From positions 55,571 through 119,570 of the forward strand of contig MFYT01000009.1 in NCBI GenBank assembly GCA_001789205.1: 64,000 bases of DNA, written 5' to 3'. Position numbers and translations under genes: made by a program. A model generated the notes under the pieces. That model was not told the origin of the DNA. It searched no databases and saw only the letters and a program-made list of their open reading frames with translations. Origin of the DNA: Candidatus Raymondbacteria bacterium RIFOXYA2_FULL_49_16 (lineage in GTDB: Bacteria; Fibrobacterota; OXYB2-FULL-49-7; XYB2-FULL-49-35). How positions within the stretch are numbered: position 1 is the stretch's first letter; the number at the start of each line of letters is the position of its first letter. This document shows, in pieces, positions 40,869 to 61,829 of this stretch.

Positions 40869-40897
40869 ATATATCGGGAGATGAATTGTTAAATAAA

Positions 40898-40954
40898 TAC
40901 CCTTGATCGTGTAATTTTTACCCTTATGATTTTACCTTTTCTATAATATATTAT
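40898..40954 (+). promoter_or_regulatory. TACCC-TACCC-TATATTAT promoter, copy 1
   Basis: TACCCTT at 40898 and again at 40919 (21 bases apart), then TATATTAT at 40947-40954, 28 bases after the second site. The same arrangement is found before the genes at 51952 and 61830. The promoter reads toward the SGNH gene with a leader of about 180 bases, and the sites also sit at the start of the divergent regulator gene. Confidence 0.6.
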
Positions 40955-41040
40955 AATCGGAACCAGTGATGGAATGAGGACATGCAGCATCAACTATCAT
41001 AAAAAATGTCCCTAGGAAAATAATGCCCGCGAAAAGGCCG

Positions 41041-41091
41041 GCAGCAGCGTCCGGTTTAACCCCATCCCCCCCCCAAACCGGGCGCTGCTGC
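41041..41091. repeat. Long hairpin in the leader of the SGNH gene
   Basis: Arms 41041-41057 and 41075-41091 pair over 17 bases (GCAGCAGCG core) with one G-U. The 17-base loop ends in nine C. TTT follows on the plus strand. It could be a terminator or attenuator, or a mobile palindrome. It lies between the shared promoter and the SGNH start. Confidence 0.6.
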
Positions 41092-41134
41092 TTTATGCAC
41101 TAATGATACAGTATGTTGTTCTTGGAGGATACAT

Positions 41135-42247
41135 ATGAAAAAACAAGCGCTGTTATTCATCGCATGCGCCGCGCTTTCAATCCATGGTTTGGATTTTAGC
41201 GTATACACAACCATTGACCAGGAAACCAAGGATTCCCTGCGCGCTAACTGGCTCGCTAAATTCCCTGCGTCCGGCTATGTACATGGTAATGTGGCCACGT
41301 TTGGCGCAAGTGTAACAAACTCACGCGCCTTTTGGTGCCCTTTTCCAGGCAGCGCCACTGGCGTTGTTCCCAACACCAATGCGGAAAGCTACCTCATTGA
41401 CAAGGACGATGACGCCAATTGCGCGGTCAACGGATATACTGTCGACGACGGGATATTGTGCCTTTCCGGCGCCATGAACACGTTAAAGCCCGAAGTCATC
41501 ATCTGTAAATATGGCGGAAACGACATCTTTAAAAACAAGCTTTCCACTTTTCCACGCAGGTTCCGCCAGTATATTACAATAATTCTTTTAAAAGGCATCA
41601 TTCCTATCATGAGCACTATAAACCCGGTCATGGATAACGGTATTGATCTTACGCCTGAGGTCCTGGCGGCAAATGATTCGGTGAGGGCTATCGCGCGGGA
41701 AAAGCACGTTGTTTTAGTGGATTACTGGCAGGCCTTCATGGATTATACAAACAACAATCCTTTCACAGCCACATGGTTTGGTGACCAGTATGTCCATCCT
41801 TCCGGCGGATGCAATCTGACCGATACCGCGACCCCCGCGTGCGGATATGGGATCAGAAACGCCGTGTCGTGGCATGCGGTAAATAAAGTCTACCGAATCA
41901 TCGTAGAAAATGGCACGCCTGATCACGTGGGACTTGAACAGCAAGCCGCACGCTCCGGAGGCTTCATACATGCGCTTGAAGCATATCCAAATCCGTTCAA
42001 TGCGAACACGGTAATAACAATGACGAATGACGAATTATCAGACATAGCGGGAATGAATCCTGAATTGAAGATATATAATATACGGGGCAAGATGGTCGCT
42101 GATTTATCATCGAATACTCGTAATCCGAAATTCATAATTCATAATTCTTTTAAATGGAACGCTTCGAATTTCCCAAGCGGGGTCTATACGATACGGGCCA
42201 AAAAGGGGAACACGATTGCATCGAAAAACATATTCCTGATAAAATGA
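41135..42247 (+). CDS. Secreted SGNH/GDSL-family hydrolase with sorting-like tail
   Basis: This 370-residue protein has a short signal peptide (ALLFIACAALSIHG) and an SGNH hydrolase domain (about 25-275). Block I is TFGASVTNS (Ser nucleophile, GAS in place of GDS), block III is CKYGGNDIF, and the C-terminal Asp/His segment is FGDQYVHPSGG. Such enzymes remove acetyl or other acyl groups from carbohydrates. The sorting-like tail starts at about 283 (YPNPFNANTVITM); both of its loops are encoded by 7-base tandem repeats. GGAGG precedes the ATG. It is first in a run of same-strand genes reaching 51779. Confidence 0.82.
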   Translation: MKKQALLFIACAALSIHGLDFSVYTTIDQETKDSLRANWLAKFPASGYVHGNVATFGASVTNSRAFWCPFPGSATGVVPNTNAESYLIDKDDDANCAVNGYTVDDGILCLSGAMNTLKPEVIICKYGGNDIFKNKLSTFPRRFRQYITIILLKGIIPIMSTINPVMDNGIDLTPEVLAANDSVRAIAREKHVVLVDYWQAFMDYTNNNPFTATWFGDQYVHPSGGCNLTDTATPACGYGIRNAVSWHAVNKVYRIIVENGTPDHVGLEQQAARSGGFIHALEAYPNPFNANTVITMTNDELSDIAGMNPELKIYNIRGKMVADLSSNTRNPKFIIHNSFKWNASNFPSGVYTIRAKKGNTIASKNIFLIK

Positions 42248-42282
42248 CGATAGACCTGGTTCTTAAAAAAGGGGGTACTGCA

Positions 42283-43254
42283 ATGTCAGTTATTAAATCA
42301 ATGATCTGCATTATAAGTCTTACCAGCATCGCTTTTGGATATTTTCCTACGGATTATACCGGATACGAGATGATTGAATTGCGCAACACAAAACAGGCCT
42401 GGCTCAGCAGCGCTTCCGCGGAGCAGTCTGGAAATCTTTGGCCGTCTTTTACATTTTACAAGTTTAATGTTTCGCATCTCCTGCTCATGGACTGGGATGT
42501 CTCATCTCTACCGCCGTTTGAGGAAATAGCCGGGGTTCAGATGGTTTTTGGCGAAGATGAAAGATGGCTAACAACAGTCTCGGGTATTTATTATAATTGC
42601 GTACGATCCGACAGCGATTGGACGCAGGCATCGGGTTCCGCGTTTACAGTTTCCGCACCGCACGGAGAACCAAGTTATTTATTTTGTCAAAGTCCTGATG
42701 TGCCATGGGCTGCCAGCGCTGCGAACCTAAAGGAATTGTTGATGGCATCAGACACCTACAGGCCATTGGAAAACAATAGGGCCAATGAATTTCATGCATC
42801 AGGAGTCTGCCTTGGTGAAATTATCTTTGATCTTGACCTGCCGGCAATAAAGGATCTGCTTGAAGGAACCTGTCACGGCCTTTGTTTTTGGGGGGGCTCA
42901 CCGGATAGATATATATGCAATTTATATAGATTACGCGTGTATAAAAATCAGGATAAAATTGAAGCTGCGACCCAAAAAAACAACACCAGCGATCAAATAT
43001 TGCTATTTCCTAATCCCGCAAACCCCTCGATTAACATTCAGTGTCCTGAAGAGATGGTCGAGGCGCACATTTCAATATTTTCAATTAATGGGGATAAACT
43101 AAAAACCATATCAACATCAAAGAACAGCGTGTTCTGGGATGGAACGGATAGTGATGGTAAAAAGGTTACTACTGGTCTTTATATATATAAGGTATCGGGG
43201 AGCATTAATGGTACACATACTCTTTTTACGGGAAAATTTATTGTAAACAAATAA
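42283..43254 (+). CDS. Secreted DNRLRE/CBM-like protein with sorting-like tail
   Basis: From the ATG at 42283 (GGGGG upstream) this is 323 residues with a signal peptide (IKSMICIISLTSIAFG). The single domain (about 22-225) shares with the protein at 54299 the segments GYEMIELRNTKQAWLSS, LLMDWDVSSLPPFEEIAGV, CVRSDSDWTQA and LKDLLEG-like (IKDLLEGTCHGLCFWGGS). This jelly-roll pattern resembles DNRLRE/disaggregatase-type carbohydrate-binding modules. No catalytic motif was seen. The tail starts at about 241 (FPNPANPSINIQC), a divergent form of the motif. Confidence 0.72.
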   Translation: MSVIKSMICIISLTSIAFGYFPTDYTGYEMIELRNTKQAWLSSASAEQSGNLWPSFTFYKFNVSHLLLMDWDVSSLPPFEEIAGVQMVFGEDERWLTTVSGIYYNCVRSDSDWTQASGSAFTVSAPHGEPSYLFCQSPDVPWAASAANLKELLMASDTYRPLENNRANEFHASGVCLGEIIFDLDLPAIKDLLEGTCHGLCFWGGSPDRYICNLYRLRVYKNQDKIEAATQKNNTSDQILLFPNPANPSINIQCPEEMVEAHISIFSINGDKLKTISTSKNSVFWDGTDSDGKKVTTGLYIYKVSGSINGTHTLFTGKFIVNK

Positions 43255-43317
43255 AAGTAATATATATTATAAAAGAGGTTATTTCAATCTTGGGGTCAAA
43301 TTACATGGGGAGGATAA

Positions 43318-44895
43318 ATGAATGCTTCTAAAAAGCCTGGAACCAGCGCTTGCCGCGTACAAATACCGGCATGGTGGCTGGTAACCATTTTTAGCCTGGG
43401 AATGGCTGTTCCAGCGCTCATTTTTGCACAACAGGATTCCGCAAAGGTCCTTTTTCCCTGGAACCTTACCTATCAGGGCGCTTTTCGTCCAAAAGCAGGA
43501 CCAGTAACCAGCGACAATACCTCGTTCCGCTATGGCGGTGACGCATTTGCCTATTATCCTAATGGCGATCCGAGCGGACCCAACGACGAGTATCCTGGTT
43601 CTTTGTACGGCGGCGGTTTTGGCGAGGACGATTATGTGTCGGAAATAACCATTCCCGCACCCGTCATCTCACCGGCAAAAACCATGGCCGACCTTCCGGA
43701 ATCCGCTCCTTTGCAAACATTCGTCAACCCATTCACAAGTCTTCCGGGCTATGCAAAAATGGGGGTTACCGGCCTTACGTACCTTCCTGCCCAAGGCCAG
43801 CAGACCTCTCCAAAACTGTACGCAAACATCTGCGATGGCTATAAATCCATGTCCAACGCAGTGACAATGGCATGGATGGACCTTGACCTGTCCAACCCCA
43901 ACATAGCTGGATTCTGGCGGGCCGGAAGTTCCATTGAATGGAACATAGGTTCCTATATGTTTGAAATTCCCGCTTCCTGGGCTGATATCTACGCGCCTGG
44001 CAGGATACTTGCTTCAGGAAGGATGCGCAACTGGGGAGGCATGGGTCCAAACCTTTTCGCCTGCGCCCCGTGGAAAGAGGGCAATCCGCCTGCTTCGGGT
44101 GACACCCTGGATAGCGTCACAACGTTAATGGAATATGGGACAGCTGAAGAGCAGGAAGACCGTTCATTTTCAATCTGCAGTTGGTATACTGCCGGCGCAT
44201 GGCTTACTTTTGGAAGCAGGTCCGCGATTGTCATGGCAGCAACAAACAATTACAGCCTGGATTGGAGCTATTTCAGCGGTCCTTTTGGCACTGGCATATA
44301 TCCCAGCCTGCTCTTTTACGATCCTGCCGACGTTGCGGATGTCGTACAGGGCCAAAAGCAGCCCTATGAACCCAAATGGTATGCCAGGAAAAATCTTGAT
44401 AAATATTATATCGGGTTGAAAGTCCCTCCGACCAACAGCGGTAATCTCAATATTGAAGAAGGCCGGTACGAGAATGCCGGCATGGCCTATGACCGCCAGA
44501 GAGGCGTATTGTACGTGGCCCAGAGAGGGCATTTCGGTACCAGTAGTTATCCGATTGTACACGTGTTCCGGATCGATACGACAGTCACTGCCTCTATGGA
44601 AAAGACCGGTTTGAGGAAAACGGACGCCTTTTATTTATCGGCAAGTCCCAATCCTTTTAATCCCCGGGTGACCATTTCATTGTTCCCGCACGCCCCTGGC
44701 TTTACTCCCCTGGAAGAGGGAATGGTCCTGGACATTTACTCCCTGCAGGGAATGCGCGTCACGAGCCTTTCCGCATTATCGGGCAATCCGTATGCATTCA
44801 ACTGGCATGCGGCCGCATGTCCAAGCGGCATATATATCGCCCGGATAAGGATTGGGAAGGCAATACTCTCAAAAGCGATTACACTGCTGAAATAA
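43318..44895 (+). CDS. Secreted protein of unknown function (propeller-like), relative of the protein at 25307
   Basis: A 525-residue protein with a signal peptide (WWLVTIFSLGMAVPALIFA). The body (about 40-430) is Gly/Trp/Pro-rich with repeated beta segments and shares motifs with the protein at 25307. Examples are RMRNWGGMGPNLFACAPWKE, DPADVADVVQGQKQPYEPKW and AYDRQRGVLYVAQRG. No known family was recognised. The tail begins at about 442 (SPNPFNPRVTISL). GGGGAGG precedes the ATG, and TATATTAT at 43263-43270 may be a local -10 box. Confidence 0.72.
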   Translation: MNASKKPGTSACRVQIPAWWLVTIFSLGMAVPALIFAQQDSAKVLFPWNLTYQGAFRPKAGPVTSDNTSFRYGGDAFAYYPNGDPSGPNDEYPGSLYGGGFGEDDYVSEITIPAPVISPAKTMADLPESAPLQTFVNPFTSLPGYAKMGVTGLTYLPAQGQQTSPKLYANICDGYKSMSNAVTMAWMDLDLSNPNIAGFWRAGSSIEWNIGSYMFEIPASWADIYAPGRILASGRMRNWGGMGPNLFACAPWKEGNPPASGDTLDSVTTLMEYGTAEEQEDRSFSICSWYTAGAWLTFGSRSAIVMAATNNYSLDWSYFSGPFGTGIYPSLLFYDPADVADVVQGQKQPYEPKWYARKNLDKYYIGLKVPPTNSGNLNIEEGRYENAGMAYDRQRGVLYVAQRGHFGTSSYPIVHVFRIDTTVTASMEKTGLRKTDAFYLSASPNPFNPRVTISLFPHAPGFTPLEEGMVLDIYSLQGMRVTSLSALSGNPYAFNWHAAACPSGIYIARIRIGKAILSKAITLLK

Positions 44896-44908
44896 AAAAG
44901 GGGATGCG

Positions 44909-46066
44909 ATGAAAACAATACCACTTGCCTGTATTCTATGCGTCCTGTGGGCGGCCAATGGTTTTTCCCAGGCCCCGGACGTACTGTGGACAAAATATTT
45001 TTCGAAAGACTCTCTCCATAACGACAAAACCGGCGATCAAAACGGCATCCGTTCGCATTACATCATTGAAACACAGGACAAAGGATTTGCCATAACAGGC
45101 CATTGCTGCTGTTATCATTGTACCGGCGACCTCTTTGCCATGAAAACGGATTCAGCTGGCAGGATTGTGTGGTCGCAAAGATTTGACGACAATGATAAGG
45201 ATGAGGTTGGAAACTGCATCCAGCAGACCGCGGACGGAGGATATATCATAGGAGGTGTCACCGAGGGCAGTCTGTTTATTATCCGGACCGATGCTTTGGG
45301 GAATGAGACCTGGAGAAGGATCTACAGTAAAAGCGGCACGTATTTTGGCTCCATCTATTCATTACGTGTGACATTTGACAATGGATTCATCGCCAGCGGC
45401 TATAGTTTTCCCGTTGGTTCAGGCAGCAGTGATGCCTACCTCCTCCGCTTGGATTCCAATGGGGACACTCTGTGGACCAAGACCTTTGGCGGAAGCGCTC
45501 ACGACTGGGGCCGGTGTGTGCAGCAGACGCAAGACAGCGGATTTATTATTTGCGGCGCCACAAATGCCTGTGGTGCGGGACAGGAGGATCTGTATTTTAT
45601 CCGCACCAATGCATCCGGGAACACACTGTGGACAAAGCAATTCGGAAAGCCAGAAGTGAACAGCGGCGGTTATTATATAGCACAGATGCAGGACAATGGA
45701 TTCGCTGTTGTGGGACATACCAACGACTACCAGGACATATATCTGCTCAGGACCAATGCGAATGGCGACACCCTTTGGACCAAGACAATTGGGGCAGATA
45801 GTACGACAGAATGGGGCAGGTCATTGAAGCTCATGCCTGATGGAGGATTCCTGATTGGCGGCCTTATTGGCGTAAACCGTCCTTCAGGGTATCTGGTCCG
45901 CACCGATGCTTCGGGAAACGTGGCATGGACAAAAGTCCTGGACAATGGCAAGAGGACACTCATTATGGGCATGGAATTGACGTCAGACAACGGAATCGTT
46001 GTCACAACACGGATACACACAGGATCAACAGCTGAAGACGGGTTTGACGTCATTAAACTTAAATAG
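44909..46066 (+). CDS. Secreted beta-propeller-like repeat protein without a sorting-like tail
   Basis: This 385-residue protein has a signal peptide (IPLACILCVLWAANGFS), then about six units of roughly 55 residues with the pattern x-T-x-D-G/S-G-F-I-I-x-G-x-T, then L/I-R-T-D/N-A-x-G-D/N-x-L-W-T-K. Examples are QQTQDSGFIICGATN and RTNANGDTLWTKTIGA. This is the delta-60/propeller-like repeat of extracellular proteins. It ends at FDVIKLK with no PNPFNP domain, the only secreted non-regulator of the island without one, so it may stay periplasmic or leave by another route. It begins 13 bases after the previous stop. Confidence 0.78.
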   Translation: MKTIPLACILCVLWAANGFSQAPDVLWTKYFSKDSLHNDKTGDQNGIRSHYIIETQDKGFAITGHCCCYHCTGDLFAMKTDSAGRIVWSQRFDDNDKDEVGNCIQQTADGGYIIGGVTEGSLFIIRTDALGNETWRRIYSKSGTYFGSIYSLRVTFDNGFIASGYSFPVGSGSSDAYLLRLDSNGDTLWTKTFGGSAHDWGRCVQQTQDSGFIICGATNACGAGQEDLYFIRTNASGNTLWTKQFGKPEVNSGGYYIAQMQDNGFAVVGHTNDYQDIYLLRTNANGDTLWTKTIGADSTTEWGRSLKLMPDGGFLIGGLIGVNRPSGYLVRTDASGNVAWTKVLDNGKRTLIMGMELTSDNGIVVTTRIHTGSTAEDGFDVIKLK

Positions 46067-46136
46067 TTTCTGTTTAAATTCGTTGATTTTGACAGGATAA
46101 TCCATAGCAAATTTAAATTATCAAAAAGGAGAATTC

Positions 46137-48263
46137 GTGAAAGGCTTTTCAGTTTTCGTTACGCTTATGGTCATACTGACCATTCAAGCGCCTCTATTTT
46201 CAGCACAACCCGCTAACTGCGCCGCCTTTTTCAGGTCCGGCCAGGTCTTTATCACCTGGGATGAAGTGGCAAACGGTGAAAAATATATCGTTTACAGCAA
46301 CACTGCTCCAATAACAACGGAGAATATCGCTTCCGCGGTAAAAAGGATTGAAAGGGCCCAGGGATCCGCGGGGAATAAAATGTTGGAATATCTGGGCGGG
46401 GCCGCGTTTTCAACCCTTACTCCGCCCTGCACTTTTACACGTAATGTTATTACCCCATTGGCGGATGGGCAGTCAGGAATGGCTGATGAGGTCGACTCGG
46501 GTGTGGGCATGATAGTCCTAACTTCACATCAGGCAGGCAGCTATTATTATGCCGTAACAGCGGTTACAGGCGGCGTGGAGGATAAAAGTTGCAGTGCCGG
46601 TAATTCGGTTGGTCCGGTTGAAGAAGTTGTTGAGGAGCCTGTTCCGGTTCTCATCTGGCGGTCAAGTATCATGCTTGCACGGGCATATCTTCAATACACA
46701 GATGTGGACTCCTTTAACCCTACCATGTGCAACACCTATGCTTTTACCTATTGGATAGGCGTGACTCCTGATTATAATACGACTTCCGGAACATTGCCAT
46801 TGGAGCTTCATGTGGATGGTTCTCCGGGGAATATGCCGGCGGTAGGCAATGATTGCAGATATTTTTGCGAGGGCATCCATCTGAAAGTCCAGGACAACCG
46901 TACGTGGTGGTATGGGTATAGCCAAACTTTCCCATACGATACGTCATATTTGTATTTTGCGGGTGGTCCTGCTGCGACCAGCGGGCCTGTAATTAATTTC
47001 ACACAAGCGCGGATTATGAACATGCTTAAATGGATGATTCTAAGGGAGCCTTATTATTCCAGCCGTATAGATACAAACCGAATACATGTCCTTGGCGGCT
47101 CCATGGGCGGCGGCGGGACCCTTATGTTCCTTCAGAATTATCCTGATTTTTTCGCATATGGCCGCGCCGATGTTCCGCCCACAAATTTCCTGGAAATCGC
47201 CTGGCAATATACCGGATGGCTTACGCCTATTTGGGGCCTTGGCAACAATGATAATATTAAAGTAGGTTTTACTGGGTGGCGCAGCGAAAAGCTGAATGAA
47301 AAATACGCCGGCATGACGGTCCATAAATGGCTGAACCTGGAAACCTTTCTTGTAGATAATAAGGACGTGGAAATGCCGTTTTTGGGGATCTGTTCCGGCG
47401 GACAGGACAACAGCGTTAACTGGCCTCAGCAAGGGAAAAACTATTATACAAACTTGAATGCTACTAAAAGAGGCTTTCTGGGCAATATAAGCGGAGGCTA
47501 TGGCCATAATTGCGAAGGTAATTCGAACGACCAACTTCTGACTATCCGTAAAAACCATTCCTTTATGGCATTTTCAAATGCGCATCAGAATGCCCCGCTT
47601 CCCTTGCCCGATGATCCATTAAGCATAAATTACCCGTTTAACGCTCATTTTCGCTGGAGCACGCCGGTGTATCGCGTTGGGGGATATCAAGACCAAATTG
47701 ATTCGACCAACAGATATGAAATTGTGCTCGCCTCGCTGAGCGGCGATGATACCGCTGATGCGACCCCAAGGAAATTACAGAATTTCGTCACAATCCCGGG
47801 AGCGGAATATATCGTGAAAAACACCGCTGTCGGCAATACGAACACCATATACCAGATTGATACAATTACTGCCGACTCATTGGGTCTGGTGACCTTTCCA
47901 GGTTTTTCCATAAAGTCCGGGACCACCAGCAGCGGCGGCTGCCGTTTCGTCATGGTTCCTGTGGAGCCTGTCACTGCCACGGGGAAATTCGCCAACCAAT
48001 TGGGAGGGCGGTGTATTGAAGTGAGTCCGAATCCGTTTAATCCGCATACCAGAATCACGGTCCAGGGGGCCGGTTTAGACGACAGATGCGATATCAGGAT
48101 ATACGGCATTACCGGTCATTTCGTGGACAAACTGGCCGTTCGCGCGTCCCAGCGCTCGGCAAGCGCTGTATGGGACGCGACCGCTTTCCCGTCCGGTATT
48201 TATATCGTTAAGGTTGCGACTAGCGGCAGTATACTGACAAAACAATTGATATTGTTAAAATAA
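46137..48263 (+). CDS. Secreted alpha/beta-hydrolase (esterase-like) with Fn3-like domain and sorting-like tail
   Basis: This 708-residue protein starts at GTG with AAAAAGGAG upstream. A signal peptide (VFVTLMVILTIQAPLFS) precedes an Fn3-like domain (FFRSGQVFITWDEVANGEKY to GNSVGPVEE). The hydrolase has the elbow LGGSMGGGG with S322, acid segment CSGGQDNSVNWPQQ and His segment GYGHNCEG. A beta domain (DATPRKLQNFVTIPG) and the tail at about 629 (SPNPFNPHTRITV) follow. It aligns along its full length with the protein at 61830 and more loosely with those at 26961 and 34904. All catalytic residues appear intact. Confidence 0.8.
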   Translation: MKGFSVFVTLMVILTIQAPLFSAQPANCAAFFRSGQVFITWDEVANGEKYIVYSNTAPITTENIASAVKRIERAQGSAGNKMLEYLGGAAFSTLTPPCTFTRNVITPLADGQSGMADEVDSGVGMIVLTSHQAGSYYYAVTAVTGGVEDKSCSAGNSVGPVEEVVEEPVPVLIWRSSIMLARAYLQYTDVDSFNPTMCNTYAFTYWIGVTPDYNTTSGTLPLELHVDGSPGNMPAVGNDCRYFCEGIHLKVQDNRTWWYGYSQTFPYDTSYLYFAGGPAATSGPVINFTQARIMNMLKWMILREPYYSSRIDTNRIHVLGGSMGGGGTLMFLQNYPDFFAYGRADVPPTNFLEIAWQYTGWLTPIWGLGNNDNIKVGFTGWRSEKLNEKYAGMTVHKWLNLETFLVDNKDVEMPFLGICSGGQDNSVNWPQQGKNYYTNLNATKRGFLGNISGGYGHNCEGNSNDQLLTIRKNHSFMAFSNAHQNAPLPLPDDPLSINYPFNAHFRWSTPVYRVGGYQDQIDSTNRYEIVLASLSGDDTADATPRKLQNFVTIPGAEYIVKNTAVGNTNTIYQIDTITADSLGLVTFPGFSIKSGTTSSGGCRFVMVPVEPVTATGKFANQLGGRCIEVSPNPFNPHTRITVQGAGLDDRCDIRIYGITGHFVDKLAVRASQRSASAVWDATAFPSGIYIVKVATSGSILTKQLILLK

Positions 48264-48293
48264 CTTCCAGCTGAATTACTAAAAAGGGCGCGC

Positions 48294-50156
48294 ATGAAAA
48301 TTATTATTGTTCTTCTTTTCAGTTTTTCCCAACTATTCGCCTTAAAATTCATGACCTTTAACATTTTAGATGGCGCAACAACCGCCTGGCAGCATGTTTT
48401 GAATATTATCAGGAATTCTGGCGCGGAAATCATTACTATTAATGAGGCGAACGACCCAAGCATCTTTTATAGGATCGCGGACAGCCTTGGATATTACCGC
48501 GTCCTCTCTGTCCATAATACATATAACGTTGGAATACTAAGCAAATATGACATTAAGGATAGCGCTATTTACACGTCCTCAACATTGTCCAAATCCCTCT
48601 TGGAGGCAAAAATCGAGGTTTCTCCCGATACCTTCATTTACGTATTTACCTCCCATTTTTATCCCTTTGGAACAGACAATGAAAGGCGCCTTGAAGAAAT
48701 AAAAGAAATCCTGCCCATAATGGCGGCAAAATCAAAATTCCCCATTCTATTTGCCGGAGATCTTAATTCACAATCACAGCTTGATGGACTTTCCGGCGAC
48801 TATGGCGCGGTAACAACGCTTATAGCGGACAGCGGCTTTTCAGATGTGTATCGTTCCGTATATCCTGACCACAATTCTCAGCCAGGTTTCACATACAATG
48901 CACAAGGCGCAGCTGATCGAAGAATCGATTACATATTTATAAATTCGGGATTCAACGCTGTTAGTGCGACCGTTCTGGATAGCGGGGACTATGCGCAATG
49001 GCCTTCCGACCATTTTGCGGTTTTTGCCGATCTGGATGTCGGTTCCATAATAGATACAACACCGCCGGAGATATCATCGATCCATATAGAAAATGATACG
49101 ATTATTACCATTACATTTAGTGAACCCTTGGACTCTTTCTCCGCTTCAAATCCTTCCAATTATTGTATAACAAATGACATTGTAGTGAAAAATGCGTCTT
49201 TGGATCAAAACGGATGCGTTGTTACGCTTTTAACCTTATCGCATACGCTGGGAAACGAGTATATGTTAACGGCCAGGGAAATAAAAGATATCGCTGATAT
49301 GCCGAACAGTACCGGCGATACCGGCGTTTCCGCGGCGTACCTCTATATGATAGTACAAAAAGGCGATACATGTTTTACTTTCGAGGACACCTATGTATCG
49401 GGCGCAGCGCCAACAACAAACTATGGCGCTGAACACATTCTGCATATTGATGGCGACCAAGGCATCCAGATAGCATTCTTAAAATTCGACCTTTCAGCCT
49501 TTAAACCCGACTCCTTGGATGTAGACAGCGTTCACTTGGTTGTAAAAGTCGCTAATGGGACCTACTCCAACAGCGCCTTTGGCGGAAACATAATGGCTGT
49601 CTACGATAATTCATGGTCAGAGAATACTGTGACGTTCGCCGCACAACCGAGTATTTCTCAGGACACCCTTGGCAGTTTCAGTCAGGTGAACAACAATCAA
49701 ATCCATGAGATCAGGCTAAACAATACGATTCTTCTTGGCGAAACGCTTTCTGTCGCGCTTGCAACGGACAATAGTGATGCGGCTGAATATTTTTCAAAAG
49801 AAGGGGGCTATGCCGCTTATTTGGTTGTGTATGCCCATGAACGGATATCTACTCTGCTCGATGATGTTAATGGCGGCTTCGATAATAATATTACAGTAAG
49901 CCCAAATCCATTCAACAGCTGCATTGCCATGCAATACAGGCTAGACCAAGAAACAATGGTAAATCTTTCCATTTACAAAGTTTCAGGTCAAAAAATAAAA
50001 AGGTATAGTAACGAGAAGCAGTCTCCTGGATTAAAAAGACTTATCTGGGAGGCAAAAGATGATTTTGGCAATGATATGGCCGCGGGCGTTTATCTGTGCC
50101 ATTTTCAGTTTGATAATGGCTTTCAAACCGTGAAGAGAATATTGTTGGTTAAGTAA
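48294..50156 (+). CDS. Secreted endonuclease/exonuclease/phosphatase (EEP) domain protein, copy 1
   Basis: This 620-residue protein has a signal peptide (IIVLLFSFSQLFA) and an EEP domain (about 18-245). That domain contains TFNILDG, ITINEAND (metal-binding Glu), LFAGDLNSQS (D-x-N) and PSDHFAVFADL (S-D-H). An Ig-like domain (PEISSIHIENDTIITITFSE), a DNRLRE-type jelly roll (about 360-510, CFTFEDTYVSGAAPTTNYGA) and the tail at about 535 (SPNPFNSCIAMQY) follow. The substrate could be nucleic acid or a phosphoester on a polymer. AAGGG precedes the ATG. A close copy is at 56520. Confidence 0.82.
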   Translation: MKIIIVLLFSFSQLFALKFMTFNILDGATTAWQHVLNIIRNSGAEIITINEANDPSIFYRIADSLGYYRVLSVHNTYNVGILSKYDIKDSAIYTSSTLSKSLLEAKIEVSPDTFIYVFTSHFYPFGTDNERRLEEIKEILPIMAAKSKFPILFAGDLNSQSQLDGLSGDYGAVTTLIADSGFSDVYRSVYPDHNSQPGFTYNAQGAADRRIDYIFINSGFNAVSATVLDSGDYAQWPSDHFAVFADLDVGSIIDTTPPEISSIHIENDTIITITFSEPLDSFSASNPSNYCITNDIVVKNASLDQNGCVVTLLTLSHTLGNEYMLTAREIKDIADMPNSTGDTGVSAAYLYMIVQKGDTCFTFEDTYVSGAAPTTNYGAEHILHIDGDQGIQIAFLKFDLSAFKPDSLDVDSVHLVVKVANGTYSNSAFGGNIMAVYDNSWSENTVTFAAQPSISQDTLGSFSQVNNNQIHEIRLNNTILLGETLSVALATDNSDAAEYFSKEGGYAAYLVVYAHERISTLLDDVNGGFDNNITVSPNPFNSCIAMQYRLDQETMVNLSIYKVSGQKIKRYSNEKQSPGLKRLIWEAKDDFGNDMAAGVYLCHFQFDNGFQTVKRILLVK

Positions 50157-50177
50157 GATAATTTTCCGGGAAGTTTC

Positions 50178-51779: not shown

Positions 51780-51823
51780 TCCATGAAACATGTGACCCCT
51801 GGCCAAATACGCATATTTTAAAG

Positions 51824-51884
51824 AATTACCCGCCGTTATCATAACATCTACCCTCTCGATTTTAGGTCTCTAAATTTATATTAT
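51824..51884 (+). promoter_or_regulatory. TACCC-TACCC-TATATTAT promoter, copy 2
   Basis: AATTACCC (TACCC at 51827) and CTACCCTC (TACCC at 51849), 22 bases apart, then TATATTAT at 51877-51884, 28 bases after the second. Intervening bases are also similar to copy 3 (TCATAACANCTACCCTC). Confidence 0.65.
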
Positions 51885-51951
51885 GTCCAAGGCGATACGG
51901 TAAAACCAGAATAATCTATAACGAACTAACGTCCTTTTAAAGGGGGTCTTT

Positions 51952-54258
51952 ATGAAGTATGTATGCTTTTTCCTCATGGTTTTACTAGTATTGTGCCATG
52001 TTTCGTATGCGAAAATCAGAAACCCCTGGATTCTTGTCGATCATTCGCTCAATACTTGGAGCAGCATAAAATCCACAACCACCCATGACCATTTTCCTTC
52101 TTTTCCGGAATACGATTCAACCAATCCGGACGCTTTTTTCAAGGCGTGGCACGATTCCATATGCGCCGGAGAACATCGTTGCGGCGGGTATGTCTACGAT
52201 GACTGGGGCGGTGACTGCAACTATGCACGGAAAAACGAGATTTTTTTCCACAATGGAGATACGTATTTGGAGTTCCCCATTCAAAGCGACGGATACGCCA
52301 TGTGTGTATCTGATCCTGTCAAGCTTTTTAACGTGTTTGGCTTTGGGTTCTGCGCTCCCACAAGCGCGAACGAAGTCAATTATTATCAGCTCCTTGGACA
52401 CGAGGGAAGAAAATTGTCCCTTCCCGGCCACCATGTGTGCGATACGTACTATAACGGTGGGTGGCATTATTTTGATTGGGACGAAGGAGGGTGGGGCGCC
52501 AATTCCCTGGGAGTGACATATGGATTGGATTCCGCCACTATTTTCGGGGCCAATTGGGACCAGGTTCCTGTAAAATCAGACTACTTCTGGAGCTATGGAG
52601 GAGACCTTACTTTTATCAAAGGCGCGTTGCCCTATCCGCAGGCTTTGTTTTTCGGCTCAGATGTAAACACCGGCGGCGGAGCAGACATGAGCTTTTGCCT
52701 GCACATTGGGGAAAAAATAGAGCGTTTTTATAACCCCATTAATACAAACTATAGGATAAGACTTTCGGGCATAACGAGTTACAGCGTGCCGGTATGGGGA
52801 AATTCACGGATCACTTATGACCCTGTGCTGGGAAGCGGTTATGCTGATTATGAAGACGGTATCTATGATGAAGAAAACACTGTGTTGGAACCAGATGGCG
52901 TGCGCCTGACAGATGGTTATGTGATATGGGCAATACGTTCTCCATATCCAATGTTTGATTCAGATGTTTCCTTGGATACCACGGGTAACTTAACTGTTGA
53001 GCTCTCATTTGATCTTGGTAATACATGGGCTGCCTATACTGAACAAACCTATTCCCCAAGCTATCGGTATGCCGCATTGAACCAGACCGAGGGGCAATAT
53101 GACTACCTGTTGAGAGTAGCGGGAAACGGAAAAATAACCGGCTTAAAGGTAGTCACCATAGGACAGCTTAATCCCGGCGGCCTGCCCTTATTGCGCGCTG
53201 GCGACAACAATGTCAGGTTTCTGCTCTATGACAACGACGAGACCCTGTCACTTCTGCCAGACTGGAGCACTGTCGATGGCTACAACAAATATGTTGTCAA
53301 TGCCGCAGGATATACGTGGAGTAATGGCCGCGTCACAGGCGACTCTGGCTCATATATAACCCTTAAATTAGACGGTCCCAGAAACAGCGACGTTGTTTCC
53401 GTAAGCGGGTATTTTCCAGTAACACGCAACAAACGTTTCAGTGAGTTTGTTCCTTCTCCAACAAACACCTTTCATATAAAGACCGGGAACAGCAGTACAA
53501 ACCTCGCCTTGAGAACAACGGCCCCTTCCCCTATGCACACAACACCGGAATTCATGGCCAGGACAGACAGGGGGGGCTTTGCGGGCTCTCAACAACCGGT
53601 AAGTTTTGAGCGCGACTCCATCAGCGATCCCGGAACCGACGGATATGTCCAGTTCTATAGCACTGGTCAAAACTCCAGTGTTAATGCGCCTCGTTTGTAC
53701 ATGCACTATCATGCGAATCACCTGCAAGAGGACTATCTAAACGATATTAAAATAACGCACATTTTTAAAACCATTAACGGTAATGGCAGGGACACGGTAA
53801 TAAATAAATTTACAGCGGACGATATTTTTCAGGCAAACGGCCTGATTGACTATACCGTTACATGCGCCAACGCCTGGGTAAAGGACCCAAGTTTCTGTAA
53901 TATCATGGAAGTTGAGGGCGGCGTGACGTTCGATCACCTTCATAACAATCCTGTTATTAACACCGCTGTCCGGGACAATGCCATGCTCGAAAATAATGTT
54001 CCAAACCCATTTGCATTGACAACCAATATACGGTTTTCAATACAATGCGACGTAAAACAAAATGTCCGGCTTGCGGTATACAATCCAAACGGCGTCATGG
54101 TTAAAATGCTCAAAAATGGCTTTCTGAATACCGGCAAATATGCCGTGGATTGGGATGGTTTCGATGCCAGGGGCATGAAGGCGCCAAATGGGATATATTT
54201 ATGCAGGCTCTGGGCGGGCAACAAGGTTCAAACAAAGAAAATCACAATGTTGCGATAA
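51952..54258 (+). CDS. Secreted transglutaminase-like protein with sorting-like tail
   Basis: A 768-residue protein with a signal peptide (VCFFLMVLLVLCHVSYA). A transglutaminase-like Cys-His-Asp core lies at about 125-180: C134 in FGFGFCAPTS, H160/H161 in LPGHHVCDTYY and D175 in WHYFDWDEGG. Whether it cross-links, hydrolyses or only binds is unknown. About 500 residues of beta-rich sequence follow without a recognised domain. The tail starts at about 682 (VPNPFALTTNIRF), a shortened motif. AGGGGG precedes the ATG, and it is the first gene after a shared promoter. Confidence 0.75.
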   Translation: MKYVCFFLMVLLVLCHVSYAKIRNPWILVDHSLNTWSSIKSTTTHDHFPSFPEYDSTNPDAFFKAWHDSICAGEHRCGGYVYDDWGGDCNYARKNEIFFHNGDTYLEFPIQSDGYAMCVSDPVKLFNVFGFGFCAPTSANEVNYYQLLGHEGRKLSLPGHHVCDTYYNGGWHYFDWDEGGWGANSLGVTYGLDSATIFGANWDQVPVKSDYFWSYGGDLTFIKGALPYPQALFFGSDVNTGGGADMSFCLHIGEKIERFYNPINTNYRIRLSGITSYSVPVWGNSRITYDPVLGSGYADYEDGIYDEENTVLEPDGVRLTDGYVIWAIRSPYPMFDSDVSLDTTGNLTVELSFDLGNTWAAYTEQTYSPSYRYAALNQTEGQYDYLLRVAGNGKITGLKVVTIGQLNPGGLPLLRAGDNNVRFLLYDNDETLSLLPDWSTVDGYNKYVVNAAGYTWSNGRVTGDSGSYITLKLDGPRNSDVVSVSGYFPVTRNKRFSEFVPSPTNTFHIKTGNSSTNLALRTTAPSPMHTTPEFMARTDRGGFAGSQQPVSFERDSISDPGTDGYVQFYSTGQNSSVNAPRLYMHYHANHLQEDYLNDIKITHIFKTINGNGRDTVINKFTADDIFQANGLIDYTVTCANAWVKDPSFCNIMEVEGGVTFDHLHNNPVINTAVRDNAMLENNVPNPFALTTNIRFSIQCDVKQNVRLAVYNPNGVMVKMLKNGFLNTGKYAVDWDGFDARGMKAPNGIYLCRLWAGNKVQTKKITMLR

Positions 54259-54298
54259 CCGATAATTCGATACATCTCAATAAAAGAAGGGGTTCCCT

Positions 54299-55294: not shown

Positions 55295-55397
55295 CTATTT
55301 TCTTGTTTTTGACGCCGGGATGGCTTATTTTATTGACGAGAAGAGCGAATTCCGGTGCAACGAGAGGGATGCAAGGGTTATTTTCTAAACAAATACC

Positions 55398-56453: not shown

Positions 56454-56460
56454 TCCCTGG

Positions 56461-56496
56461 TTGATGATTAGACTGATGATTAGGTTGATGATTAAT
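56461..56496. repeat. Triple 12-base tandem repeat
   Basis: TTGATGATTAGA, CTGATGATTAGG and TTGATGATTAAT stand end to end just after the Fic gene and before the second EEP copy. The spacing is a little more than one helical turn. Confidence 0.7.
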
Positions 56497-56519
56497 TCCT
56501 TTAACCGCATTCGTTGAAA

Positions 56520-58376
56520 ATGAAAACTATCATTATTCTCCTTTTCAGTTTTTCCCAGATATTCGCCTTAAAATTCATGACCTTTAACATTTTAGATGGC
56601 GCGACAACCAGCTGGCAGCATGTTTTGAATATTATCAGGAATTCTGGCGCGGAAATCATTACAATTAATGAGGCGAATGACCCGGGTGTATTTTACAGAA
56701 TAGCTGACAGCCTTGGATATTATCGCGTTCTTTCCGTACATAATACTTACAATGTTGGAATACTAAGCAAATACGTCATTAAGGATAGCGCTATTTACAC
56801 GTCCTCAACATTATCCAAATCCCTTTTAGAAGCCAAAATCGAAGTTTCGCCCGATACATTCATTTATGTATTTACATCACATTTATATCCCTTTGGAACA
56901 GACAATGAAAGGCGCCTTGAAGAAATAAAAGAGATCCTGCCCATTATGGCGACAAAATCAAAGTTTCCCATTGTTTTTGCGGGAGACCTGAATTCACGGT
57001 CACAGCTTGACGGTCTTTCCGGAGATTATGGCGCCGTAACAACACTCATGGCGGATAGCGGCTTTTCAGACGTGTATCGTTCCGCATATCCTGATCACAG
57101 TGTCCAGCCAGGATTCACATACAATGCCCAAGGCGCAGCTGACCGGAGAATCGATTATATTTTTACGAATCCGGGATTCAGCGCTATCAGCGCGAATGTA
57201 CTTGATAGCGGGGATTATGCGCAGTGGCCCTCTGACCATTTTGCGGTTTTTGCCGAACTGGATGTCGGTTCCATTGCAGATTCAACACCACCAGAGATAT
57301 CATCGATAGGCATTGTAAATGATACCATCATTACTATTACGTTTAATGAACCCTTGGATTCTCTCTCTGCTTCAAATCCTTCCAACTATTCAATAACAAA
57401 TGGCATTTTAGTGGAAAATGCGTCTTTGGGCCAAACCGGGACCATTGTTACGCTTTTAACCTCCCCCCATATGCTGGGAAGTGAATATGTGTTAACAGCT
57501 AAAAATATCCTGGATATTTCTGATACGCCGAACAGCACCGGCGATACCGGTGTCACTGCAGTTTACAGCTATGTATTATTGCAAAGAGGCGATACTTGTT
57601 TTGCGTTTGAGGACACATACATATCGGGCGCAGCGCCAACCGCAAACTATGGCGCTGAACCAATTCTGCTTATTGATGGCGACCAGGGGATCAAAACAGC
57701 CTTTTTAAAGTTCAACCTGTCGGCCATTAAACCCGATTCCTTGATTTTGGACAGTGTTCATTTGATTATAAAAGTTGCTACTGGCACTTATTCCAACAGT
57801 ATCTTTGGCGGATATGCAATGGCAGTCTATGACAATTCATGGTCCGAGGACAATGTAACGTTCAATACGCAACCTGTTATTTCCCAAGATACCCTTGGTA
57901 ATTTTAATCAGGTGAATAACAATCAAATTTATACAATAAAATTAAACAATACAATCCTTCTTAGCGAGACGCTTTCCATCGCACTCGTAACCAGCAACAG
58001 CGATGCGGCTGAATATCTTTCAAAAGAAGGGGGCTATGCCGCTTATTTGGTTGTATATACTCATGAACCAACATCTGCCATACAGAAAGATGTTAATAAC
58101 TGCTTCGATATTACATTATGCCCAAATCCATTCAACAACCACATTGCCATGCAATACAGAATAGCCGGAGAAACCACCGTAAGTATTTCCATTTTTAATA
58201 TTTTGGGTGATAAAATTATAGGTTATGTTAAAAAAAAGCAGTCGCCTGGATTGAAACGATTTAATTGGGAAGCAAAAGATGGTTCTGGCAATGACCTCGC
58301 CGCGGGAATTTACATATGCAATTTTCAGTTTGATAATGGCTTTCAAACCATTAAGAGAATATTGTTGGTTAAGTAA
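56520..58376 (+). CDS. Secreted EEP-domain protein, copy 2 (duplicate of the gene at 48294)
   Basis: A 618-residue near copy of the protein at 48294 with the same order: signal peptide (IIILLFSFSQIFA), EEP domain with TFNILDG, ITINEAND, VFAGDLNSRS and PSDHFAVFAEL, Ig-like domain, DNRLRE-type domain and tail (CPNPFNNHIAMQY). Catalytic motifs are intact. DNA similarity begins at the start codon and continues about 40 bases past the stop. Unlike copy 1 there is no SD site before the ATG at 56520; a TTG two codons upstream is the alternative. Expression may therefore differ or be lost. Confidence 0.8.
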   Translation: MKTIIILLFSFSQIFALKFMTFNILDGATTSWQHVLNIIRNSGAEIITINEANDPGVFYRIADSLGYYRVLSVHNTYNVGILSKYVIKDSAIYTSSTLSKSLLEAKIEVSPDTFIYVFTSHLYPFGTDNERRLEEIKEILPIMATKSKFPIVFAGDLNSRSQLDGLSGDYGAVTTLMADSGFSDVYRSAYPDHSVQPGFTYNAQGAADRRIDYIFTNPGFSAISANVLDSGDYAQWPSDHFAVFAELDVGSIADSTPPEISSIGIVNDTIITITFNEPLDSLSASNPSNYSITNGILVENASLGQTGTIVTLLTSPHMLGSEYVLTAKNILDISDTPNSTGDTGVTAVYSYVLLQRGDTCFAFEDTYISGAAPTANYGAEPILLIDGDQGIKTAFLKFNLSAIKPDSLILDSVHLIIKVATGTYSNSIFGGYAMAVYDNSWSEDNVTFNTQPVISQDTLGNFNQVNNNQIYTIKLNNTILLSETLSIALVTSNSDAAEYLSKEGGYAAYLVVYTHEPTSAIQKDVNNCFDITLCPNPFNNHIAMQYRIAGETTVSISIFNILGDKIIGYVKKKQSPGLKRFNWEAKDGSGNDLAAGIYICNFQFDNGFQTIKRILLVK

Positions 58377-58417
58377 GATAATTTTACAGGAAGCTTCATA
58401 AAATCTCTTGTCTTGAA
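58377..58417 (+). pseudogene. Decayed 5' end of an SGNH gene, left by duplication
   Basis: The 40 bases after the second EEP copy match those after the first, including the ribosome-binding site and first codons of the SGNH gene at 50178. Here its ATG has become ATA (58398-58400) and similarity ends after CTTGA. It is a remnant that shows the EEP gene was copied from the 48-50 kb locus. Confidence 0.6.
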
Positions 58418-58446
58418 AGTAACCTTGTTAAAATGAGGCTATATTC

Positions 58447-59325
58447 ATGAAAATCCAGGAAGGAAAAATCCGGGTAAACGGCCATGAAGTCTGGTATCGC
58501 CGGGTTGGCAGCACAGGGACGCCGCTATTGACCCTCCATGGCGGCCCTGGCGCTGGCCACGACTATCTGGAACCACTGGAAAAATTGGCCACAAACCGTC
58601 CTGTCATATTTTACGACCAGCTTGGTTGCGGCAAATCTGACAAACCCAATGACCGGTCTCTCTGGAAAATAGAGCGTTTTGTCGCCGAGATAGACGCCCT
58701 CCGCCAGGCTTTGGACTTGGAACACATCCATCTACTGGGCCATTCGTGGGGCGGCTGGCTGGCCATCGAATATATGTCCACACATCCAACCGGTATAAAA
58801 AGCCTGATCCTTGCCAGCACCTCGGCCAGCACTTCTCAGTTTGTATCTGAAGCAAAGCGCCTTATATCTGAGTTGCCCCTGGAGATCCACGAAACACTGC
58901 ACCGTTTTGAGGCTGCCAGTGATTACACTAATCCAGATTATATAAAGGCTGTCAGGGAATTCTATAAACGCCACAACTGCCGTCTTGCAGAGAGACCTGA
59001 ACCATTCCAACGCACCCTTGTTAACCTCAGCAAAACGCCTGTTTATGAAACAATGAATGGTCCCAATGAATTCACGGTGATTGGAAATCTGAAAAATTGG
59101 GACCATACCCACAGTCTTGGTGAAATATCCGTCCCAACGATGATTACGGTTGGCAGGTATGATGAAGTCACGCCTGCGTGCGCAGAAACATTGCATCAAG
59201 GCATCCCACATTCACAAATGGCCGTCTTTGAACAAAGCTCCCATGTCGCCCATCTTGAAGAGCCGGAAAAATATCTGCGCGTAGTTGGTGATTTCCTGGA
59301 TGCGGTTGATGCTACATGTGACTAA
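58447..59325 (+). CDS. Alpha/beta-hydrolase of the prolyl aminopeptidase (tricorn-interacting F1) type
   Basis: This 292-residue cytoplasmic protein has the HGGPGAGHDYL oxyanion segment near 35-45 and the nucleophile elbow LLGHSWGGWLAIEY with S100. The acid lies in VGRYDEVTP and His in SSHVAHLEEPEKY. This is the proline iminopeptidase pattern: removal of N-terminal Pro or similar residues from short peptides. There is no signal peptide or sorting tail. GAGG lies upstream of the ATG. It could process peptides freed by the secreted enzymes, but that is speculation. Confidence 0.85.
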   Translation: MKIQEGKIRVNGHEVWYRRVGSTGTPLLTLHGGPGAGHDYLEPLEKLATNRPVIFYDQLGCGKSDKPNDRSLWKIERFVAEIDALRQALDLEHIHLLGHSWGGWLAIEYMSTHPTGIKSLILASTSASTSQFVSEAKRLISELPLEIHETLHRFEAASDYTNPDYIKAVREFYKRHNCRLAERPEPFQRTLVNLSKTPVYETMNGPNEFTVIGNLKNWDHTHSLGEISVPTMITVGRYDEVTPACAETLHQGIPHSQMAVFEQSSHVAHLEEPEKYLRVVGDFLDAVDATCD

Positions 59326-59547
59326 GCACTAATTTTCTCATGCGACTTTTTCTTTCGCCTTTTAGTGGCAACCGGCCATCTTTTATATTTTAGTTAAGAA
59401 ACGACCCTGATATGCCTGACCTGACATGAAATAAATTGTATCATTTATTATACATTCTTGCTCTTATTTGTATCATAATCGATATCAGATTCCTGAAATT
59501 TAAAAAACATTGCAATGGTATATATATTGCTTTATTTTATTTATATT

Positions 59548-61509
59548 ATGAGACACTTTATTGTATTTGCTGGTTTAATATTATCTGTAAATATATTCGC
59601 TGCGCGCACGGTCATGGGCTTTGACCCCCCTGACCAAGCCTTTGTGTTCCGTGACAGCAGTTTAACCGCAGATACGCTTATCATAATAAACAGCGGCTCT
59701 TTTACTGCGGTAAATTCTACTATTGCCCTTAATTGTCTATTTGTTCTGAACTCTGGAACAATGGAGGTCAGGTCCTGCCATTTTTCTATCGACGGCCCGC
59801 TGGTAGCAGGAGGAAATAGTAGGGCCTTTATTTACGACAGTGTTATCATACGGGGCAATATCATCGGTTTTGAACAAGCGGTTATGGTCTTTGACAGCGC
59901 AACCCTTATTATGCCTACAACGTATGTCGGACAATATTCGATCAACGGGTCAAACCAGGCAAATATCACTATACAGAACTCCCTTCTCGATGTCGGGCTG
60001 GTAAAGCTGGGGGGCGGGCTCGTGGATTCTGCACGCATAACCCACAGAAACAACCGGTTCAACAAGCCGGGCGGGCTTTCCATGACATTCGGGATGTCCG
60101 GGAATAGCACTCTGATCGCAGAAGATTGCGAGTATGGGTTTGAACTGCCGATCTGGCACAGCTGTTCAATATCGATAAAAAACATCAATTCGGCCGTCAT
60201 TTGGTTTTCGATACCGGAAAGCGCATCAGTTACAATAGTTTTTCCTGACCCTGACTATCCCACTGTACCTGGTGCCAGTGCAGTAGATTCCTTTTCATTC
60301 AACAGCGGAGTGAATGGGCTGGCGGATATCCCTTACAAGGTTGAGGTTCGGTCTGTGCCTTTGGTATTCTGGTGTCTGCTTCCCCAGTCCGGCTCATCTG
60401 CAACGATCAATAATTCTTTTATCCGTGCCTGCGGTATCCAGTATTTCGGGTCGGGGACCGATACGGTTCAGGGGTTGTACAATGACTCTCTCTATGCTGC
60501 AGCCACAATGCCAATCTCGGACCGAACACTTGTTATGAACAATTCCCTGGTTGATGCCTGGACCCTCTATCCCATGGATTCCGTGACCCTTGTCATCAAA
60601 GACTGTATATTCGGAGAAATGCTCGCCTTCCAAAAATGCCATGTGATTATAGAAAACAGCGAATGTGACGGTACCGGCGGGTATTTCGGTGGAGAGCAAT
60701 CATCACGGATTGATGTGTATAATTCCACGATCCGGGATATTGAGGAAAACACCCCGATAGTCCATAAACAAACTTCTGTGCTCAGGCTGTTCAATTCCGA
60801 GGTCATAGGTCCCATTACCCTTTCACAGTCTTCCAGGATTCTCTTGGCCTCATCACGCTATGATACCGATCCGGCAGTGAATGACCAGGCTTATTTTCTG
60901 GCTGCATCAATTGATACTGTTGCCGTGGAGGGTAACACGGCCGCAGTCATCGGGTCAATAAAGGAATTCGCAGGACCGCAGAGTACCACGGCTTTCTCAG
61001 GGCTTATTTTCCAATATGACAGTGCCGGAGGCGGTACAGTGCTTATCGAAGACATCAGCAAGAACGGAGTGGTCGATGCTGATACACTCTATGTCTGGGA
61101 CCGTTCCGGTGTGGAAGAAGGCGCGTATAATCTCCATGCGGGAATTAAGGTTGATGGTGATACGGTCATTTCACTGTCTAGGGCAGTGCTGCTTCCTCAA
61201 CGGGTAAGTGTTGAAGCAATATTCGCCGGAGAGGCCGGTCCTGAATTATCCTGTTACCCGAATCCGTTTAATCCCTCAACTACAATACATATTCAGACAA
61301 AAGTCAAAGGTCTAAAGTCTAAAATCGTGGCAGATATATTTGATTTGCGAGGGCGTTGTGTGGAGACGGTCCACCGGACCGTCTCTGCCAACGACATGGG
61401 ACATATGACAATTGTGTGGGATGCATCGAACCACCCTAGCAATGTCTATATCGTGCAGGCAGAGGTAGGCGGAAAAGTACTTACAAAGAGGATCGTGCTG
61501 ATTAAATGA
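59548..61509 (+). CDS. Secreted right-handed beta-helix protein with sorting-like tail
   Basis: From the ATG at 59548 this is 653 residues with a signal peptide (FIVFAGLILSVNIFA). Residues about 30-480 are a long series of short beta-strand turns rich in N, S, I and V (for example ITIQNSLLDVGLVKLGG; LVIKDCIFGEMLAFQKC; RIDVYNSTIRDIEENTP), as in pectate-lyase-like parallel beta-helices. No clear catalytic triad was seen, so it may be a lyase, a hydrolase or an adhesin. The tail begins at about 569 (YPNPFNPSTTIHI) with repeat DNA in both loops. The start is uncertain; an ATG 11 codons upstream is possible and neither has an SD site. Confidence 0.75.
   Translation: MRHFIVFAGLILSVNIFAARTVMGFDPPDQAFVFRDSSLTADTLIIINSGSFTAVNSTIALNCLFVLNSGTMEVRSCHFSIDGPLVAGGNSRAFIYDSVIIRGNIIGFEQAVMVFDSATLIMPTTYVGQYSINGSNQANITIQNSLLDVGLVKLGGGLVDSARITHRNNRFNKPGGLSMTFGMSGNSTLIAEDCEYGFELPIWHSCSISIKNINSAVIWFSIPESASVTIVFPDPDYPTVPGASAVDSFSFNSGVNGLADIPYKVEVRSVPLVFWCLLPQSGSSATINNSFIRACGIQYFGSGTDTVQGLYNDSLYAAATMPISDRTLVMNNSLVDAWTLYPMDSVTLVIKDCIFGEMLAFQKCHVIIENSECDGTGGYFGGEQSSRIDVYNSTIRDIEENTPIVHKQTSVLRLFNSEVIGPITLSQSSRILLASSRYDTDPAVNDQAYFLAASIDTVAVEGNTAAVIGSIKEFAGPQSTTAFSGLIFQYDSAGGGTVLIEDISKNGVVDADTLYVWDRSGVEEGAYNLHAGIKVDGDTVISLSRAVLLPQRVSVEAIFAGEAGPELSCYPNPFNPSTTIHIQTKVKGLKSKIVADIFDLRGRCVETVHRTVSANDMGHMTIVWDASNHPSNVYIVQAEVGGKVLTKRIVLIK
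61299..61323. repeat. Simple tandem repeat in sorting-domain loop 1
   Basis: AAAGTC, AAAGGTCT, AAAGTCT and AAAA follow each other and encode KVKGLKSK between the first two strands of the tail of the beta-helix protein. Confidence 0.5.
61363..61385. repeat. Perfect palindrome in sorting-domain loop 2
   Basis: GAGACGGTCC (61363-61372) and GGACCGTCTC (61376-61385) form a perfect 10-bp stem with a 3-base loop. In frame it encodes ETVHRTVS, extra residues between the VE and W-D-A-S strands of the tail. Confidence 0.75.
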
Positions 61510-61829
61510 TCTGATCGCGCACCTTGCCGCATATGGATCAATACAAGAATTTTATAATTAGTCCAGAATTTTGGTATGGCCTAACTGATCTTATAAAGGG
61601 TTCCATGTTTTCCTTACTTGGAGCAAAGGCAAATAAACTGACATACAGAATCCAAATCGGATATTTTTTCAATTAATACACTCACCCCAGGGTGAAGAGC
61701 GGTGGATCTCATTGAAGTTGGACATGGTTGAGCGCTTAATCTCTTAAATAATTACCTGCTGTATTCATAACAACTACCCTCGCTATTTTTCGTTTCCTGG
61801 TATATATTATATATTAAAAAGGGGAAACC
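61510..61829. other. Gene-free stretch before the last esterase gene
   Basis: This 320-base spacer holds the third TACCC-type promoter at its right end. A small TCACCC/GGGTGA hairpin lies near 61684-61697. No open frame of substance or terminator with a T-run was seen after the beta-helix gene. Confidence 0.5.
61750..61810 (+). promoter_or_regulatory. TACCT-TACCC-TATATTAT promoter, copy 3
   Basis: AATTACCT (TACCT at 61753) and CTACCCTC (TACCC at 61775), 22 bases apart, then TATATTAT at 61803-61810, 28 bases after the second. The SD site AAAAAGGGG and the ATG follow within 20 bases. Confidence 0.65.

Follow-up and report, generated by a model that had tools for sequence, protein, structure and literature searches.

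The sugar-responsive AraC protein of Escherichia coli uses direct half-sites about 21 bp apart at araI, with the near one extending to the -35 region; it carries a cupin-type sugar-binding domain and acts with DNA looping. At the Pm promoter of the TOL plasmid, XylS recognizes two homologous 15-bp direct repeats, each made up of two short boxes that are contacted by two recognition helices; two monomers bind, first at the near site and then at the far one, and RNA polymerase is contacted (PMC5481539). The AraC/XylS activator MtlR of Pseudomonas fluorescens acts at PmtlE, where 15-bp blocks with direct repeats lie at -72 to -58 and -50 to -36, 22 bp apart and next to the -35 element (PMC4514859); the operator layout predicted for the three sites described here is the same.

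These three sites fall within a 21-kb cluster of secreted-enzyme genes in the window, by which we mean the whole stretch of 64,000 nucleotides that was analysed, and each reads TACCY / TACCC / TATATTAT. The two TAC boxes start at 40898 and 40919 in copy 1, at 51827 and 51849 in copy 2, and at 61753 and 61775 in copy 3, giving spacings of 21, 22 and 22 bases. In 3 of 3 copies TATATTAT begins 28 bases past the second box, at 40947, 51877 and 61803. A sequence-only reading of this DNA had reported just these positions and distances, and we recovered all of them.

The boxes are surrounded by longer half-sites (for example, TTAAATAATTACCC), all on the forward strand. Copy 1 consists of a far, or distal, half-site gttaaataaaTACCCTTG (40888-40905), a near, or proximal, half-site gtgtaattttTACCCTTA 21 bp from it (40909-40926), and a predicted -10 box TATATTAT (40947-40954). 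In copy 2 the far half-site tttaaagaatTACCCGCC (51817-51834) and the near half-site tcataacatcTACCCTCT (51839-51856) are 22 bp apart, and the predicted -10 box TATATTAT is at 51877-51884. Copy 3 has the same 22-bp spacing between cttaaataatTACCTGCT (61743-61760) and tcataacaacTACCCTCG (61765-61782), with the predicted -10 box TATATTAT at 61803-61810. Taking TATATTAT as the -10 box, with its first base at about -12, puts the far half-site at about -72 to -58 and the near half-site at about -50 to -36. The spacings of 21, 22 and 22, together with the 22 bp of the paralog promoters considered below, are those of AraC/XylS class II operators.

The likeness to the described systems is one of layout. 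Mannitol, arabitol and glucitol are the compounds to which MtlR responds, and its half-sites, sensor domains and targets are unlike those of P0001, our candidate regulator. The TGCA and GGTA boxes of XylS and its benzoate-sensing domain likewise differ from the P0001 system, and where AraC has a cupin-type domain, P0001 has predicted PAS and lectin-like domains.

The far half-sites of the three copies can be aligned as TTAAATAAATACCC, TTAAAGAATTACCC and TTAAATAATTACCT, and the near half-sites of copies 2 and 3 have TCATAACANCTACCCT in common. Some shared bases between the boxes of copies 2 and 3 had been noticed before; the shared stretch is in fact longer, with identity at 39 of the 50 operator positions, compared with 19 of 85 in the upstream flank and 13 of 52 in the downstream flank, both at background level. 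Within copy 1, the far and near half-sites are identical at 11 of 16 positions at an offset of 21 bp. By itself, TATATTAT is unremarkable: it occurs 9 times in the window, where 1.3 copies are expected, and is therefore probably the ordinary -10 box of this DNA. A perfect 14-bp palindrome, TATAATATATTATA (40942-40955), holds the -10 box of copy 1, so that a -10-like box is present there on both strands.

Our genome-wide statements are based on pattern and protein searches of the 5,431,435 bases in 112 contigs. With loose spacing, the pattern matched the whole genome exactly three times, at the three sites, while the reversed control gave 0 matches. By chance, about 0.015 matches per genome are expected when the spacing is loose and 0.0006 when it is tight, figures that overstate the evidence somewhat because the pattern was drawn post hoc from the data; the tests on paralog promoters are independent of it. 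A scan of this kind had been proposed as a check on the sites, and it places the pattern far above chance, with every match inside the cluster. Relaxing the -10 box to TAWAWTAT yielded no further matches in the whole genome, and a further genome pattern search returned copies 2 and 3 as its sole matches. We also scanned 452 kb with a matrix derived from the six half-sites: the three sites ranked highest, and the fourth match was the promoter of a P0001 paralog (L057). A genome search allowing up to 3 mismatches gave 7 forward and 5 reverse matches, compared with 1 and 4 for the control, and those besides the three sites look like noise. A single match in another genome of the phylum (G044) is within chance, as reversed controls matched 3 times in the same 60 genomes.

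P0001 is encoded on the reverse strand at 39189-40868, divergent from copy 1, and its start codon is 30 bases from that copy. Pfam and the AlphaFold model (mean pLDDT 78.7) indicate one or more PAS-like regions, a lectin/ConA-like beta-sandwich at residues about 202-395, and an AraC-type DNA-binding domain at about 450-556. The last of these is matched by HTH_18 (E 1.2e-16) and, in two stretches, by HTH_AraC, and its predicted structure matches the C-terminal domain of AraT (Z 14.5, 2.6 A over 108 residues); Pfam and the structure match together give the C-terminal AraC-type domain with two helix-turn-helix motifs by which AraC/XylS proteins are recognized. For the beta-sandwich (residues 202-395), the best structure match is 1oq1 (Z 16.8, 3.1 A over 186 residues). 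Such a lectin-like fold is no proof of sugar binding, and a ligand of this kind is putative. The protein had been labelled PAS-AraC from its translation. The AraC part of that label holds, while PAS is weak in P0001 itself (E 0.018, residues 136-177, below the cut-off) and clear in its paralogs: PAS_9 is found in 9 of 10 family members, with E values of up to 1 and a best value of 7e-11. About 54 AraC-type helix-turn-helix matches occur in the genome, several of them on the same contig. Two more AraC families with paralogs of their own are represented in the window by the genes at 33030 and 37617, and the window member of the latter type has a CBM9 domain.

Nine full-length paralogs of P0001 exist in this genome, at 31-38% identity, which makes a family of 10 members. 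At least 7 of the 9 are divergent from a neighbouring gene with a signal-peptide-like start, whose product is apparently secreted; the divergent neighbour at L041 is an oxidoreductase, and L046 is close to a contig end. Among 166 other genomes of the phylum, we found no full-length relative of P0001, and in the named genomes that were also searched, as in those 166, only the DNA-binding domain was matched; operators thus cannot be compared between species.

The promoters of these paralogs provide an independent check on the geometry. All spacings between 8 and 40 were examined for direct repeats in the nine paralog intergenic regions, in a scan that was not anchored to a -10 box and used neither TACCC nor the three sites. 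A spacing of 22 gave a total of 96, compared with 77.9 +/- 3.1 for the other spacings (maximum 85; z about 5.8), and in 400 dinucleotide shuffles no spacing reached that total. A divergent regulator with a 22-bp direct repeat between the two genes is what characterizes a P0001-type family, and both elements are found here. When a -10 box lying 27-29 bases downstream was scored jointly with the repeat, the result was 144, compared with an average of 120.4 (sd 3.6) for shuffles. The repeat-to-box distance is only broadly defined: a gap scan without preset anchors showed a wide optimum at 25-29 in this AT-rich DNA. A TAC lies 49-50 bases ahead of a -10-like box in 7 of the 9 paralog regions and in 8 of 79 controls (Fisher p 3e-5, in a test framed after the paralogs had been viewed). 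The clearest case is L053, in which two copies of TTCTACTA are 22 bp apart and TATATTAT begins 28 bases past TACTA. Most of the paralogs have half-site sequences of their own.

We consider it likely that the three sites are operators of an AraC/XylS-type activator, most probably P0001, that works by class II activation. Computation gave us the sites, the fact that they are unique, the layout of their half-sites, the paralogs with their matching operators and the predicted folds; from these we infer binding by P0001, activation, the kind of ligand and the extents of the operons. The signal would probably be a sugar-containing compound, sensed through the lectin-like and PAS regions of P0001. 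With ligand bound, P0001 would fill both half-sites: two of its DNA-binding domains would occupy one face of the DNA, each on a direct-repeat half-site of about 15-18 bp, with 21-22 bp from one half-site to the other. As the near half-site would extend to the -35 region, the bound protein could recruit RNA polymerase to the TATATTAT -10 box in the class II manner. When the signal is present, P0001 would in this way turn on three transcription units encoding mostly secreted, sorting-tagged hydrolases. Both the AraC-type interpretation of the direct repeats and the choice of the gene at 39189-40868 as regulator had been put forward from the window alone; they now draw independent support from the nine paralogs of P0001, from the promoters divergent from these and from the published AraC/XylS geometry, with binding itself predicted.

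The geometry by itself is compatible with any AraC protein. Because most paralogs have half-sites of their own, the specificity of P0001 for TACCC is presumed from its position. We weighed an assignment of the same operators to another local regulator, encoded at 33030-34697, at 37617-39176 or, for a 265-residue AraC protein, just beyond the downstream end of the window. The contig does carry five AraC-type genes in addition to P0001, most of them no more than about 30 kb from the sites, and the regions beside non-P0001 AraC genes have a weak excess of 21-bp repeats. However, it is the P0001 start codon that is 30 bases from copy 1, a pairing with 22-bp repeats and with esterases of the copy-3 type was demonstrated for P0001 paralogs only, and the 33030 and 37617 regulators belong to other families, each with its own paralogs. 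We regard such a reassignment as unlikely.

Two further explanations dispense with a common AraC-type regulator. The resemblance among the sites might be a remnant of recent copying of a promoter fragment, or a coincidence; since copies 2 and 3 match at so many operator positions, one may derive from the other. Nevertheless, their similarity ends sharply at the operator edges and the genes downstream are unrelated apart from the sorting tails, while copy 1 has mainly the half-sites in common with them and differs in spacing (21). The same layout recurs at nine separate promoters next to paralogous regulators, and coincidence is further opposed by the low chance expectation given above, so that we hold this explanation to be very improbable. 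OmpR-type response regulators commonly bind repeats 10-11 bp apart. An alternative sigma factor or a two-component response regulator might read the boxes with no AraC protein involved, given that the near TACCC box is close to the -35 position and that direct repeats are used by many regulators. Two boxes separated by two helical turns, at 21 or 22, would be unexpected in a sigma factor -35 element, though, and the 21-22 seen here is unlike the OmpR spacing; the layout follows the AraC paralogs instead. Of all the explanations considered, we give this one the least credence.

P0001 may also regulate itself, a proposal whose plausibility comes only from the distance of 30 bases between copy 1 and the P0001 start codon and from the palindrome that holds the -10 box of copy 1. 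Taken as an operator system of P0001 and its paralogs, the locus has the look of a real gene switch of a conventional kind, multiplied by copying to about ten within one bacterium.

The first gene past copy 1 (41135-42247, forward strand) encodes an SGNH/GDSL hydrolase with a sorting tail (Pfam Lipase_GDSL_2 and Por_Secre_tail), and the genes from 41135 onward are mostly secreted hydrolases with T9SS-type sorting tails. Copy 2 is followed by a secreted protein (51952-54258, forward strand) in which a domain search found a C-terminal sorting/FlgD-Ig tail and recognized no further domain, and copy 3 by a secreted esterase-like serine hydrolase (61830-63992, forward strand) with a sorting tail (Pfam Por_Secre_tail; weak PETase/S9 matches). 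The three products had been described as unrelated secreted proteins. This is correct apart from their sorting tails, whereas the description of the 51952 protein as transglutaminase-like was not borne out, the sorting tail alone being found.

Within the window, the copy-3 esterase has an operator yet is located 21 kb from P0001. Three of its close paralogs (47-50% by blastp) are encoded immediately divergent from the P0001-type regulators of L055, L057 and L061, which makes the pairing of such an enzyme with such a regulator a recurrent one. The remaining close esterase paralogs mostly appear to be intra-operon and so add no operator tests. The esterase family as a whole is expanded, with 14 close full-length paralogs (46-71% identity; L072-L085) and many weaker ones.

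These pairings raise the possibility, which we put forward tentatively, that gene duplication has produced about ten parallel glycan-sensing switches, in which regulators with PAS, lectin-like and AraC regions, each with its own operator but all with one geometry, mostly drive an expanded family of secreted esterases; the pairs may not cross-react. The mechanism is of a known kind, and the unusual part is the presence of ten regulator-operator pairs in one genome. By sequence alone, a regulator family is tied to its operators in a genome with no close relatives among those compared, and a prediction follows as to which secreted enzymes respond as a group. The ten pairs also pose the question of how duplicated AraC regulators hold their promoter geometry while the sequence that they read changes, and of which ligands they sense.

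Several other features of the cluster deserve mention. A strong 17-bp hairpin is predicted by folding at 41041-41091 (forward strand), within the 5' leader that the copy 1 transcript is predicted to have ahead of the SGNH hydrolase gene; this leader of 174 nt has a folding energy of -56.6 kcal/mol (z -3.6 compared with shuffles), and the hairpin could serve as an attenuator or in transcript protection. The genes at 48294-50156 and 56514-58376, 6 kb apart, share one order of domains, Exo_endo_phos + CBM96 + sorting tail, and are probably a duplication. Just past the window is a gene for a GH106 alpha-L-rhamnosidase (L014:3748-6513), to which the copy-3 unit appears to reach; its place in that apparent unit suggests a plant pectin-type substrate. 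Finally, the intergenic regions beside non-P0001 AraC genes among L017-L061 have a weak direct-repeat excess at 19-23 bp, with a peak at 21, suggesting that other AraC operators could be found by the same approach.
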